DNA of 64,000 nt from Xestospongia bergquistia (lineage: Eukaryota; Porifera; Demospongiae; Haplosclerida; Petrosiidae), in contig OZ014412.1 of assembly GCA_963965975.1 (NCBI GenBank), positions 8,246,708 through 8,310,707 of the forward strand, in the 5' to 3' direction. Below, piece after piece: positions 4,439 to 62,110 of the stretch. The notes beneath the pieces were generated by a model, which made no database searches, was not told where the DNA came from, and saw only the letters and a program-made list of their open reading frames with translations. Numbering within the stretch: position 1 is the stretch's first letter; each line of letters opens with the position of its first letter. A program made the translations under genes and the position numbers.

Positions 4439-5560
4439 GATATCAGGGTGTAAACAACAGAAAAAAGAGGAATATGGAATATTGTACATTGCTGCATAAG
4501 TAGTACTACCACCTGCATGATTGTAATTGACAACTTGTGTAGCAAATTATTGTCTGGTAAATATATAGTTAGACAAAAGAATTTTAATACATGACATGAG
4601 TCAGAGTGTTATGACTATAGAGCATAATTAGGATATCATCCTAACCACATGCAAGCCATTTCAGAGAAACTAATAGTATTGAACTAAATGAACACTCAGT
4701 TCCATAGTAATTATAGTAATCATAACAGCATATGTCGTTGATACTTTCAAATGATAGCAGCACTATGTAGACACATGTGACCATCAATTAGTTAAAACAA
4801 CTAATCTATAACAGCAGTTTATGGTACTAGTGATCACTAATGAGCAGTGTTTAAAGCATGTACTTAATGCACATAAATATGATGTATATCTTTTTCATGC
4901 ATATTATATTTTACAATAAATATCTGTGGAAATGTATGTTCATACATTACATATGCTGTGCATACTATGTACATACATTTATTGTTGTATATTGTTGGAT
5001 ATCAGGGTGTAAAACAGCAAAAGAAAGAGGAATGTAGAACATTGTACATCCATCATATATGTAGTACTACCTCCTACCTGATTCTAATTGATAACTCATG
5101 TAGTAAATAATAGTCTGAAATTAAAAAGTTAGACAAAAGAATTTTAAATGTGCATGACATGGATCAGACTGTTATGAGTATAAAGTTTATATTGTGACAG
5201 CCCTCTTAACCACATGCAAGCCCTTTCTTGAACTATATGTAGAGTCAGTTCTGTAGTAATCATAACAGCATATGTTGTTGATACTTTCAATGATAGCAGC
5301 ACTTCCTAGGAATGTAAGTGACCATCAATTTACTAAAGCAACCAGTCTATAACAACAGCTTATGGTACTAGTGATCAATAATAAATGATATTGAAAGCAT
5401 ACATATAATCTACATAATTATAAGGACATCTTTTATACACATTTTATACTCTACAATGATTAGATTTATTAATGTATTACATATGCTGTACATATTATGT
5501 ACATTCATTGACATCTAATTGTATATTATGTGACATATATATTGTGTAATATTGTATGTC
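4439..5560 (+). repeat. Two tandem copies of the intergenic block
   Basis: The block beginning tatcagggtgtaaac(a) near 4440 recurs at about 4998 with the same landmarks in the same order: gaggaatat, gtagtactacc, attgacaact, gacaaaagaatttt, catgacatg, accacatgcaagcc, cataacagcatatg, atgatagcagcac. Diverged copies lie at about 33558 and 48836, each time 3' of a modular gene and 5' of a stanniocalcin-like gene. It therefore marks the boundary between cassettes and is non-coding as far as can be seen. Confidence 0.75.
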
Positions 5561-7143
5561 AGCTAAATAAGATAATAATTATATTATCAACATTATAACA
5601 AGTATTTCAATCCTGAAATGTATGATATCATGTAATGTAATGTGGATGATGATCATAAACATACTCAAACTCACATTAGTAATAGTGTTATGATTTAAAC
5701 CACAATATATCAAATGTTCACAAACTGTGGTTTTACCATTCCATGAAGATCCATTTAAGAGAGTGTTTCTGCACTAACATGAATACTCAAACATTTATAA
5801 AATGTTAAAAGAGTACTTTGAAGTTTAGCAAGCCATATATAACTCAACAGATAACATTTGGCTTCTCATATACATGAAATAAAGTGATCTACACAATGTG
5901 TGTTATATAATTTCATGAAAGTCTTTCCCTTTGGTACAGTGTTTATCTACTGTTTAATAGCAGTCTTTTAAAGGATATACTGTTAACACACATAGTAGTG
6001 TAGTTACAAATTCACACTATACATGTAATTAATGTAATAACTCAGCATTATATATGGGGTATGATTGGAGGTCTATATAAAATATTATATTATCCTGAGT
6101 TGTCAATGAGGTGATTTGTCATCGATTGGTGCTTTCAACAATAATGTGACTATTTGTGGAAGATCTAATAAACTCTTGTCATAACTGTCATATGGGAAAT
6201 CATGACAACAGGATGTGACAAGTGTACACTCCCTCAGACATGTATAACAGTGTATAAATACTTATTATCTTACTATGAAATCAAGTTCAGTACATTACTA
6301 TATTATATGCACTAAAGTATACACCACTTTATTGCATGTAAACATCATATACTCTAATCCATAGAATTTGAAGTGTTGGTTTGTTCTTATCATAAATTAA
6401 ATTATGGCAGTTATGACAATTATAGTATCTATCTGCTGATCTGATGATCAGTAGACTTTTAGAAATGGTCACATAAACAATCATTTTACCAGAGATGCAT
6501 TTGTGAAAAAAGTAGAGTATAGTATTAATAGCCTTTGCGATAAGTGATATGAGTAGAATACAATGTATTGTGTTATTTTAGTAATAGTTATAGTTTTGAT
6601 GATTTTTAAATGTCAGCACTAGTATTTTTATCAAAAAGATATGGTTTTAGTATTAGCTTTGGTTTCTTTATTAGTAATAGTATTAGTATCAAGACAACAA
6701 GCATTAGTTATATTGACATAACAACATACTACTAACAACATGTTCTTTTCTGAAAATATCTAATTGCTAGTCATATACTTAATGCTATAAATATCAAGTC
6801 ACAAAACAATACTATATTATACATATGTTTATAACATAGCTAGTAACATGACAAGATATGTATGTATATTGAGTCACAGATATATTTCACAGCCCAAAGG
6901 TTATGTTCACTGACTAATTAACCTCTAGTAAGAATGTAAATTATATTGTAGTCTTTTACAAAATTGATACAAAAGTCTAATACATTTCATAATCTTGAAT
7001 TCCAATGGGCAAGATGGGAGATACCAGTCAAAGATTTTAGCTCTAGAAAGTGCAAGAAGCAGTTATTACCTTTGTGAGCGTCTGATGACGACATAGATTT
7101 CGGGTGTTCTGATTGGTGAGCCAAAACAGAGTATTAATAAACG
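5561..7143. other. 5' flank of stanniocalcin-like gene 1
   Basis: No gene seen. Landmarks shared with the upstream regions of the other two copies include gtgttggtttgttcttat (about 6370; 34383; 49699), a [GTATTA]-rich low-complexity stretch (6640-6710; 34690-34735; 49990-50035) and gggcaagatg...gataccagtcaaagatttta (about 7006; 35088; 50487). The whole upstream region was thus duplicated with the gene. Confidence 0.6.
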
Positions 7144-7170
7144 GAGTGGGCGTAGCCTAACTATATAAAG
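7144..7170 (+). promoter_or_regulatory. Core promoter of stanniocalcin-like gene 1
   Basis: GAGTGGGCGTAG (7144-7155) is followed by a TATA box, TATATAAAG (7162-7170), about 35 bases before the ATG at 7204. The GAGTGGGCGTAG element is identical at 35341-35352 and 50738-50749 before the other two copies, whose TATA boxes are weaker (TATTTAAAA, TATTAAAG). A CCAAT-like attggt lies further upstream near 7111 only in this copy. The implied 5' UTR is very short. Confidence 0.55.
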
Positions 7171-7203
7171 CTGTACAACTGACAAACTACATTGCATTAC
7201 AGT

Positions 7204-8111
7204 ATGACGCTACTCGCGTTTGCAGTGGTGCTTTATCTGACAGTTACTGTCAATGCTCAGGACTGTACAGTTCTAGCTAATACTGGTAACTGTGACTTCT
7301 ATACTCAGTGTGTAGAGCCAAGATTTCAATGTGGTACTAATGGATATCCTCTTGCCTATGGTGACAAATACTGCCGCAATTTCAAAAATAAGCAAACTTG
7401 TTTTGCAATTGCTGTGAGTATTTAATGTTTTCTATGACTTATTTCATTAATAACATATAGGGTCAAACTTGGATTGATAATGTGAATAGTTGCCTTATGA
7501 AAGCCATTTTAAACAGCAGTGTCTACAACTCAAATGGAACATGTAGTCAATTACAAACAGTTGCATTCAATAGTCATCAATCCTGTTATACTGATAATGG
7601 ATTCTGTACTGATATTCTTTTGAGTGACACTAACTTGCATTGTCTTGCCTTTGAAGTGTTTGACTCAAGTGATTTCTGGAATGAACAGGCAATTCAACAG
7701 GTTTGAAACCAATACTATCTATATAATATCTATCTTTTTATATATACATATATATATATAAATATCATTGAAGATAACATATCATTATAGGTTCTACAAA
7801 CAGCAACTACATGTACTAGACAGGTAATAGAGAGGTTCTTGTCTTCTGTGGATTACTGGATATCAAATACTGTACAATTTGTTACACGTCAACTCCTTCT
7901 AACTTTGAAAGATCTTTTTGGAGGTATATATAATATATATATATACATGTGTTGTGTATACGGTAATTATTACAATCATTATATTGTGGTTAATTTATAT
8001 TGGGGAGGAGTTTCTGTTTGCAAAGCAAGTGTATCTTGTAATGTGTGCGTGATACACCAGATTTTGGAACAATGCTATTTCGGTATTTTTTTGCTAAGCA
8101 TAGATCAATAA
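7204..8111 (+). CDS. Stanniocalcin-like secreted protein, copy 1
   Basis: Exons are 7204-7413, 7461-7700 and 7791 onward (all phase 0 joins). Residues 1 to about 20 form a signal peptide (MTLLAFAVVLYLTVTVNA). The mature part has the stanniocalcin layout: a CDFYTQCVE-like motif, then F-x3-G-x9-C, then Cys spacings of 16, 13 (ending in CY) and 6, which match vertebrate stanniocalcins closely. Several N-glycosylation sequons (NSS, NGT) are present. Stanniocalcins are secreted disulfide-linked glycoproteins linked in vertebrates to calcium and phosphate handling; the role here is unknown. Start: the two other copies lack the upstream in-frame TTG, so the ATG at 7204 is preferred. Odd: copies 2 and 3 splice 7923-equivalent to a short last exon, but here that acceptor reads TGG instead of TAG. 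The frame instead runs through the intron to TAA at 8109-8111, giving a different C-terminus unless another acceptor is used. Confidence 0.75.
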
Positions 8112-61178: not shown

Positions 61179-61184
61179 AATAAA
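61179..61184 (+). terminator. Likely polyadenylation signal of gene C
   Basis: AATAAA, followed by a T/G-rich stretch (attttttgtgct), about 340 bases after the proposed stop codon. Confidence 0.45.
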
Positions 61185-61381
61185 ATAGATTTTTTGTGCT
61201 TTTAAAATTATCCTGTCAATTGGTGACTTTGAGCATAACGCTAGATCTCTTCAATACCATCTTTCACAATTGTTTGCAGAGGTGACTCTATGACAGCTGA
61301 TTTAAAGTTATATGACCACTTGATCTGGATGAAGTTATCAGCAACCAAGCATTGGGCAAATGATGAAGACTCTCATGTTGT

Positions 61382-61506
61382 GGTACTTTTTAACGATACT
61401 TTTATAATACTACCAGTCAGAAATGTGAAATGTTTATTTATAGAGGTTGCAATGCCAATGATAATAATTTTTTCACACTACATGAATGTCAACAGCACTG
61501 CTCAAG
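61382..61506 (+). pseudogene. Relic type-3 Kunitz exon
   Basis: Matches the last three quarters of exons 29795-29962 and 46061-46228. The Gln codon before RYFYN is TAA, the Gly of YGGC is Arg (AGA), and the donor aggttag has become aagttag. The 5' part is replaced by unrelated sequence. It is the only trace of the C-terminal block in unit 3. Confidence 0.7.
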
Positions 61507-61624
61507 TTAGTAAAATAAGACAAAGTTATATCTTTATGTTTGTAATGATTGTAGTCAATATATTACTTATATTATATTGTAATATATACTAGTACCTTAT
61601 AACATTTTGGTAAAATAAAACCTG

Positions 61625-62110
61625 TTTATTGGGAAGAGGGACTACATTATATATTATATATATTACATATTTTACTGAAATCTCTATTGTCTCATGGATA
61701 ATACTGATACCAGTATTTATTTTGTGGTGACTGGTCTCTCACACATATCTATAGTCCACACTCCACAATAGTTGAGTGTATGTAAGCAACCCTTAAAACT
61801 GCTACTAATATTTGCTATAATATAATAATATTGTGACACTTTATCACATAAAATGATTGCTATATATAACTTATATGCTTAATGATAGTGTATTAATTTT
61901 AATTACTTAATTAAGTCGTCAATTACGAGAAACATCAAAGGTATATCCTCATACATATATTAGTACACACTAAATACATAATAAGAGTGAACTTAAAGTT
62001 TTAGTGTATTTAAGTGCATATAAATACTTGTCACATGATTTGTCTGGTAAATTTCCACTGGTGTTGACAGAGAGATAGTATTATATAATGACAAATGGAG
62101 CTTACTTAAT
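61625..62110. repeat. Third copy of the modular-gene 3' flank
   Basis: gggaagagggactaca...tatattttactgaaatctct, actggtctctcacaca and ggtaa.tttccactggtgttgacag match 30950-31680 and 47175-47940 in order, with deletions. It marks the end of the third cassette. Confidence 0.65.

Follow-up and report, generated by a model that had tools for sequence, protein, structure and literature searches.

A stanniocalcin-like domain as the predicted N-terminal module of IgGFc-containing mosaic genes in the sponge Xestospongia bergquistia

STC and IgGFc exons of the tandem units

The stretch of DNA analysed here, called the window, comprises 64,000 nucleotides of contig OZ014412.1 in the Xestospongia bergquistia assembly GCA_963965975.1 (C2:8246708-8310707 in the contig numbering used below; the genome searched has 146.46 Mb in 21 contigs). 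It carries exons of a stanniocalcin-like (STC) domain followed by exons of the IgGFc family, and the initial annotation had described it as a three-fold tandem cassette pairing an STC-like gene with a separate IgGFc modular gene. Self-BLAST confirmed three collinear units, A at ~4.4-33.4 kb, B at 33.45-48.7 kb and C at 48.7-62.1 kb, with lengths of ~29, ~15 and ~13 kb that differ because modules are repeated. The exons at the centre of this analysis are the following.

7204-7413, 7461-7700, 7791-7923, plus strand: STC module of unit A (signal peptide and STC-like domain; introns in phase 0 and 0, end in phase 1)
35401-35610, 35662-35901, 35960-36092, plus strand: STC module of unit B
50796-51005, 51057-51296, 51355-51487, plus strand: STC module of unit C
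13306-14643, plus strand: first IgGFc exon of unit A (phase 1-1, joined to STC exon 3 in our model)
15964-17301, plus strand: second IgGFc exon of unit A
18491-19828, plus strand: third IgGFc exon of unit A (recognised by likeness to the other copies, not by Pfam scan)
38172-39509, plus strand: IgGFc exon of unit B (phase 1-1)
53581-54903, plus strand: IgGFc exon of unit C (phase 1-1)

Both domain assignments made earlier stood up to profile searches. The STC module scored 25.3 bits (unit A) and 28.7 bits (unit B) against Pfam PF03298, above the cut-off of 23, and eight of ten aligned family members reached an E-value of 0.05 or better; the four of the five window IgGFc exons that were scanned matched PF17517 with 142.8-153.2 bits (cut-off 25.6; E 1.8e-41 to 1.2e-44). 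The STC exons have 70, 80 and 44 codons with intron phases 0, 0 and 1 (modelled in most copies read). Positions 7204, 35401 and 50796 are start codons, as annotated, but 13306, 38172 and 53581, which had been taken as the starts of IgGFc genes, are phase-1 splice acceptors of an internal exon, and unit A has three IgGFc exons where B and C have one each.

The junction between STC and IgGFc

We examined 29 distinct copies of STC exon 3, drawn from 30 fetched loci and the window region. None has a stop before the phase-1 GT donor, which reads G|GT in 28 copies and A|GT in one (L031). On the other side of the intron, the IgGFc acceptor lies in phase 1 at the same place in all five window exons and in every one of 13 close relatives that were sampled; among seven other IgGFc exons sampled, one (on C13, 72% identical) has a phase-1 AG 17 bases upstream. 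Joining STC exon 3 to the IgGFc exon creates a phase-1 junction codon G|AA (Glu), and the spliced frame is open in all three units (640, 640 and 635 amino acids). A scan for signal-peptide exons with a phase-1 donor, which recovered the known STC exon 1 as a control, detected no such exon in the STC-IgGFc interval of unit B or C.

A further array lies at C1:21977265-21988770 (L017, L018, L020), where seven STC modules succeed one another on the same strand, with an IgGFc exon 2.3 kb beyond the last. Only the most upstream module matches from residue 1, the others starting from residue 10-16, and all four distinct inner modules that were read begin at a T-rich, phase-1 AG acceptor. The array is apparently one gene with seven STC domains.

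The association of STC with IgGFc is real throughout the genome. We merged 69 STC loci by hand from most, not all, of 179 exon matches (at least one pair, at 1.1751 and 1.1766 Mb on C6, may be one gene). Downstream on the same strand, an IgGFc exon occurs within 14 kb of 39 loci (the seven tandem C1 modules counting as seven of them) and a vWA exon within 2 kb of 22, with 17 of the 22 STC-vWA gaps measuring 200-287 bases. Together these make 61 of 69 loci, where random placement gave 0.35 on average and never more than 3 in 1,000 trials, and strand shuffling 31 on average and never more than 46. A same-strand IgGFc exon of the close subfamily lies within 10 kb downstream of 36 of the 69 loci and upstream of 7; on the opposite strand, no IgGFc exon of any kind was found within 10 kb of any locus, and no vWA exon of the family within 2 kb. 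Viewed from the IgGFc side, an STC exon occurs within 20 kb upstream of 56 of 64 close-subfamily matches versus 0 of 31 distant-subfamily matches, both figures being lower bounds with 95 of 252 IgGFc candidates scored.

Places where the same STC head is followed by vWA in place of IgGFc (L042 and L044 among them) include:

C6:1154163-1195653
C2:10.606-11.338 Mb
C1:23.118-23.924 Mb

The one vWA exon scanned matched PF00092 (E 4e-36), and the vWA exon begins in phase 1 at both places read (L044/L028, which are one place, and L042). L044 also has an additional module after vWA, for which no Pfam match was found.

Chaining the exons of whole units gave a model of 38 exons and 3,144 amino acids for A and one of 21 exons and 1,463 amino acids for B, both with no internal stops, with GT-AG at every junction and with TGA next; the model for C has 15 exons and 1,199 amino acids and no 3' end. 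Broken exons, the Ser/Thr exon of unit A at 23531-23689 and the Ser-Gly linkers are omitted from the models. Good phase 1-1 splice sites could be assigned to 60 of 66 domain exons in A-C, the six failures being three Ser/Thr linkers with no usable site, two shortened ones with weak donors and the Kunitz remnant of unit C. In an unrestricted scan of 24 exons, phase 1 was the top site at both ends in 17 and tied in 2 more, and another three (two TIL halves and the terminal exon) have other phases that fit the chain.

Given the splice phases, the lack of a stop behind STC exon 3 and of a start before IgGFc, the open joined frames, the tandem STC array and the exchange of IgGFc for vWA, each unit is most likely a single gene (we would give this a probability of about 0.93), in which STC forms the N-terminal module of a long secreted modular protein; its transcripts would start just upstream of STC exon 1. 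Several points weigh against this reading, which is drawn from genomic sequence (domains, splice phases, open frames, linkage and constraint). Neither IgGFc nor vWA occurs near eight of the 69 STC loci, among them L031, whose exon-3 acceptor is lost, and the 14-kb and 2-kb cut-offs were fixed after the distances were known. The STC-IgGFc intron of unit A (~5.4 kb) holds five signal-peptide-like open reading frames, none of them formally excluded (one, at 12278, is strongly hydrophobic; their donors look weak by eye). For the IgGFc exon of unit C, two AGs of another phase score equal to or higher than the chosen acceptor by a crude score; this exon and the SMB-like one at 31938 are the two of 24 that do not fit in the unrestricted scan, while the scan of 66 exons asked for phase 1 alone. 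Finally, exons may have been missed in the full models.

Of the other explanations, the one that survives best is that two kinds of transcript are made from the same unit, the long fusion and a short form encoding STC alone through intronic polyadenylation or a retained intron. The frame of exon 3 does run past the donor to a stop (open reading frames 7791-8108, 35960-36115 and 51355-51504) and could be translated; however, A and B/C show little conservation beyond the donor, the tails differ in length and sequence, and the donor itself is kept in every copy, which makes the short form an unlikely addition to the long one.

The initial annotation had proposed two genes, one STC-like and hormone-like and the other of the IgGFc modular type, that were duplicated jointly and have stayed linked, perhaps because they share regulation or function; this finds no support and appears very improbable. 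STC and IgGFc are indeed separate domain families, and stand-alone IgGFc genes seem to exist, because the distant-subfamily IgGFc exons lack STC upstream and two of the six sampled (L060, L064) have a likely in-frame signal peptide of their own, as judged by eye. Within the family considered here, however, STC exon 3 lacks a stop in all copies, the scan found no start before IgGFc in units B and C, the phases of the two exons match, the inner STC modules of the C1 array have no signal peptide, and elsewhere vWA takes the place of IgGFc behind the same STC head.

Downstream modules, shared blocks and the wider cluster

Behind the IgGFc exons, the units continue with smaller modules, as follows.

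14809-14967, plus strand: Kunitz exon of unit A
15059-15223, 15273-15431, plus strand: Cys-rich exons of unit A (phase 1-1)
17450-17608, 17671-17826, plus strand: Kunitz and Cys-rich exons, respectively, after IgGFc exon 2 of unit A
19979-20137, plus strand: Kunitz exon after IgGFc exon 3 of unit A
20273-26173, plus strand: linker region of unit A (Ser-Gly linker 20273-20353, ten Ser/Thr-rich linker matches, five SMB-like Cys-rich exons)
26927-29026, plus strand: second Kunitz/Cys-rich block of unit A
29095-29231 with 29366-29489, and 29576-29740, plus strand: TIL at the 3' end of unit A
29795-29962, 30069-30129, 30221-30437, plus strand: Kunitz exon, a further exon, and terminal exon with stop TGA, unit A
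39589-39795, plus strand: dead SMB-like exon of unit B (three in-frame stops, good splice sites)
40670-46703, plus strand: Ser/Thr, SMB-like, Kunitz, Cys-rich and TIL modules of unit B (terminal exon 46487-46703, stop TGA)
54984-61505, plus strand: SMB-like and Ser/Thr exons of unit C, then a Kunitz remnant (61376-61505) with no phase-1 acceptor

Two Kunitz exons scanned matched Kunitz_BPTI (PF00014) with 69.9 and 73.8 bits (cut-off 21; E 2e-19 and 1.3e-20), and TIL was found with 31.1 bits against a cut-off of 24.5, a second TIL scoring 24.5. Several Kunitz modules contain GPCKG, whose lysine is the trypsin-type P1 lysine, and others have Thr or His at that place. Among the Ser/Thr-rich linkers of unit A, phase 1-1 sites were assignable in nine of ten. 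No Pfam match was obtained for the Cys-rich, SMB-like and terminal modules scanned, two SMB-like exons yielding no family at E-values up to 0.1 and up to 1; we use the name SMB-like for a presumed resemblance in cysteine spacing only to Somatomedin_B (PF01033).

The blocks shared between units, as delimited by self-BLAST, are:

A 4428-5769, B 33550-34358, C 48805-49670: upstream block 1
A 6421-6923, B 34477-34975, C 49783-50314: upstream block 2
A 4428-6923, repeated ahead of B (33550-34975) and C (48805-50314): whole upstream stretch
A 7136-8285, B 35333-36376, C 50731-51846: STC block
A 13115-14677, B 37964-39544, C 53398-54938: IgGFc block
A 28208-32459, B 44481-48709: 3' block (4.2 kb, 93.7% identity)

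Upstream and intergenic blocks are thus duplicated in the same order, as had been noticed, and the block at 4428-5769 of unit A is itself a diverged tandem repeat. The duplication of the 3' flanks holds for A and B but not for C, in which no TIL or terminal modules were found by similarity and which has lost its 3' end. The Ser/Thr exon of unit C at 60770-60880 is broken by one stop and retains good splice sites; being in phase 1-1, this exon and the dead exon of unit B could be skipped with the frame intact. The STC-IgGFc intron is ~3 kb longer in unit A than in B and C, and contains a diverged direct repeat (8958-9683 versus 10335-11132, 68% identity) that is possibly a mobile element.

The array extends beyond the three units first described. 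The relic of another copy noted at the left edge of the window was found again, with further relics in the 50 kb to its left; this left flank is full of matches to the window, while the 50 kb to the right contain none of 300 bases or more. Genome matches place four more units with STC and IgGFc to the left:

C2 8.167-8.175, 8.190-8.194 and 8.206-8.210 Mb, minus strand: three units
C2 8.218-8.225 Mb, plus strand: one unit

The cluster therefore has seven units over ~134 kb with a single strand switch: the first three (8.167-8.210 Mb) are on the minus strand, the other four (8.218-8.302 Mb) on the plus strand, and A, B and C close the series. By the same kind of match, related units are also present on C1, C2, C5 and C6. 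One left-flank unit (L006, window -19657 to -12532) has ten pairs of SMB-like and Ser/Thr exons evenly spaced ~754 bases apart, the product of a recent tandem expansion within this neighbouring unit.

Between units, the ratio of nonsynonymous to synonymous divergence (dN/dS) is 0.42-0.55 for STC and 0.20-0.32 for IgGFc, and dS is lower for STC (0.06-0.13) than for IgGFc (0.19-0.26). The low dS of STC may reflect gene conversion of the head, but the identity profile of B and C (aligned bases in 300-base windows) has no sharp block, with a peak of 98.3% over STC exon 3 and 87-96% elsewhere. Uncollapsed haplotypes as the source of the tandem copies are scarcely credible: the identities of B with C (87-98% in these windows) and of the 3' block of A with that of B would suit them, but module numbers differ between units, IgGFc dS is ~0.2, the strand switches within the cluster and related units lie on several contigs. 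The same divergence, module counts and relatives on other chromosomes led us to reject assembly duplication, which had been named as a possible explanation of the arrangement and is unlikely.

The STC domain, the predicted protein and known systems

A profile of ten family members searched against the PDB (E up to 1) matched only three STC2 sequences, with a best E-value of 2.6e-4; the STC2 structures used for comparison were 8a7d, 8a7e and 7y5q, numbered by taking the 168-residue chain to begin at R44 (after PMC9579167). Seven cysteines were aligned by HMMER (C36, C57, C81, C98, C112, C119 and C158 with STC2 C70, C85, C109, C125, C139, C146 and C181), and C21, C30 and C43 were matched to C56, C65 and C76 solely from their order and comparable spacing. 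According to Table 1 of PMC9780223, the ten matching cysteines of STC2 make five of its six intramolecular disulfides, so that the ten cysteines of the five core disulfides are present in the sponge module. All 12 cysteines of the family are invariant across 29 models (28 places, one locus having been modelled twice), C158 being judged in the 26 models that include exon 3. The sponge module has two additional cysteines, C66 and C131, relative to STC2. In the printed alignment it lacks a counterpart of C120, by which STC2 binds PAPP-A, and STC1 likewise lacks C120 (PMC9579167). The dimer cysteine C211 is also unmatched: 24 of the 26 models have no cysteine after C158, and the other two carry one whose position was not compared with that of C211. 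From these sequences the domain would be monomeric, with no dimer cysteine.

Two other STC-like genes were seen, one (L041, C12:5713600-5715400) with a transmembrane-like segment downstream and one (L043, C3:927900-930500) with a single open frame of 452 codons and a hydrophobic C-terminus. AlphaFold2 on the latter, a distant relative within the genome, gave a mostly helical but poor model (mean pLDDT only 40), and the prediction for an IgGFc exon was too poor to use (mean pLDDT 34). No NCBIfam entry was matched. A PF03298 search of the genome returned no matches although the exons exist, so that a gene split into exons is easily missed when this genome is searched by family.

In the single-gene reading, exons 1-3 would encode the signal peptide and the STC domain, and exon 3 would be spliced at the phase-1 junction directly to the IgGFc exon. 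Kunitz, Cys-rich, Ser/Thr-rich, SMB-like and TIL modules would follow on further exons, almost all in phase 1-1, until the terminal exon with the stop, giving long secreted mosaics of the predicted lengths given above for A and B. Such symmetric exons would permit duplication, loss and exchange of modules with no break of frame, which would account for the triple IgGFc of unit A, the STC tandem of C1 and the loci at which vWA stands in for IgGFc. STC is most likely an exon-shuffled module of secreted mosaics whose family is very large in this genome, and the protein, with 209 cysteines and a signal peptide (by inspection) in model A, looks secreted, with mucin-like Ser/Thr linkers.

Its function can be addressed only tentatively. 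Both stanniocalcins inhibit the metalloproteinase PAPP-A, STC2 by way of a disulfide and STC1 competitively with none (PMC9579167). The mosaics may perhaps act as mucus- or matrix-like multi-headed protease inhibitors, in which the STC head would bind a metalloproteinase non-covalently or serve in structure or assembly, although we lean somewhat against this. A search for Peptidase_M43 gave no genome matches, but this is no evidence of absence, because the equally fruitless PF03298 search missed real exons. The size and clustering of the family suggest, as an alternative, a role in recognition or immunity, and, in a study of sponges, the legend of a figure on pattern-recognition receptor domains mentions IgGFc-binding (PMC8242945).

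An odd pairing of genes thus becomes a clear and testable gene architecture. At the long intron between STC and IgGFc, gene-prediction programs and human readers alike may cut such genes in two. With a constant secreted head followed by phase 1-1 exons, related secreted proteins could be made by the dozen in a single animal. The families themselves (STC, IgGFc, vWA, Kunitz and TIL) are already known, and what would be new is the predicted fusion of STC to IgGFc or vWA. In the open-access literature, no such fusion appeared in the titles or abstract openings of the top matches, and 'IgGFc-binding' and 'stanniocalcin' co-occurred, among the matches listed, only in a paper on alligator plasma.

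The architecture of FCGBP consists of serial VWD-C8-TIL repeats. Like FCGBP and other PF17517 proteins, the sponge genes combine IgGFc_binding and TIL modules in a long, secreted, Cys-rich protein; they differ from FCGBP by the STC head and by Kunitz and SMB-like modules, and no VWD module was met among the exons examined, VWD itself not having been searched for. They share their modules with multi-domain Kunitz/TIL serine protease inhibitors, but carry them behind STC and IgGFc heads. Stanniocalcin is known as a vertebrate hormone and protease inhibitor. The sponge domain belongs to the same family as stanniocalcin-1 and -2, but it would be the head of a mosaic and not a free dimeric factor; the vertebrate factor is free-standing with its own stop, whereas in the sponge the phase-1 donor precedes any stop in all 29 copies. 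The presence of STC as a domain of mosaic extracellular proteins would bear on the origin of the hormone family. It is conceivable, though we think it rather unlikely as a whole, that STC is a monomeric shuffled module heading ~60 mosaic genes with an IgGFc or vWA body, that these form a fast-changing, individual-specific mucus or recognition layer, and that the free dimer of vertebrates was derived from an older modular extracellular domain of inhibition or adhesion.

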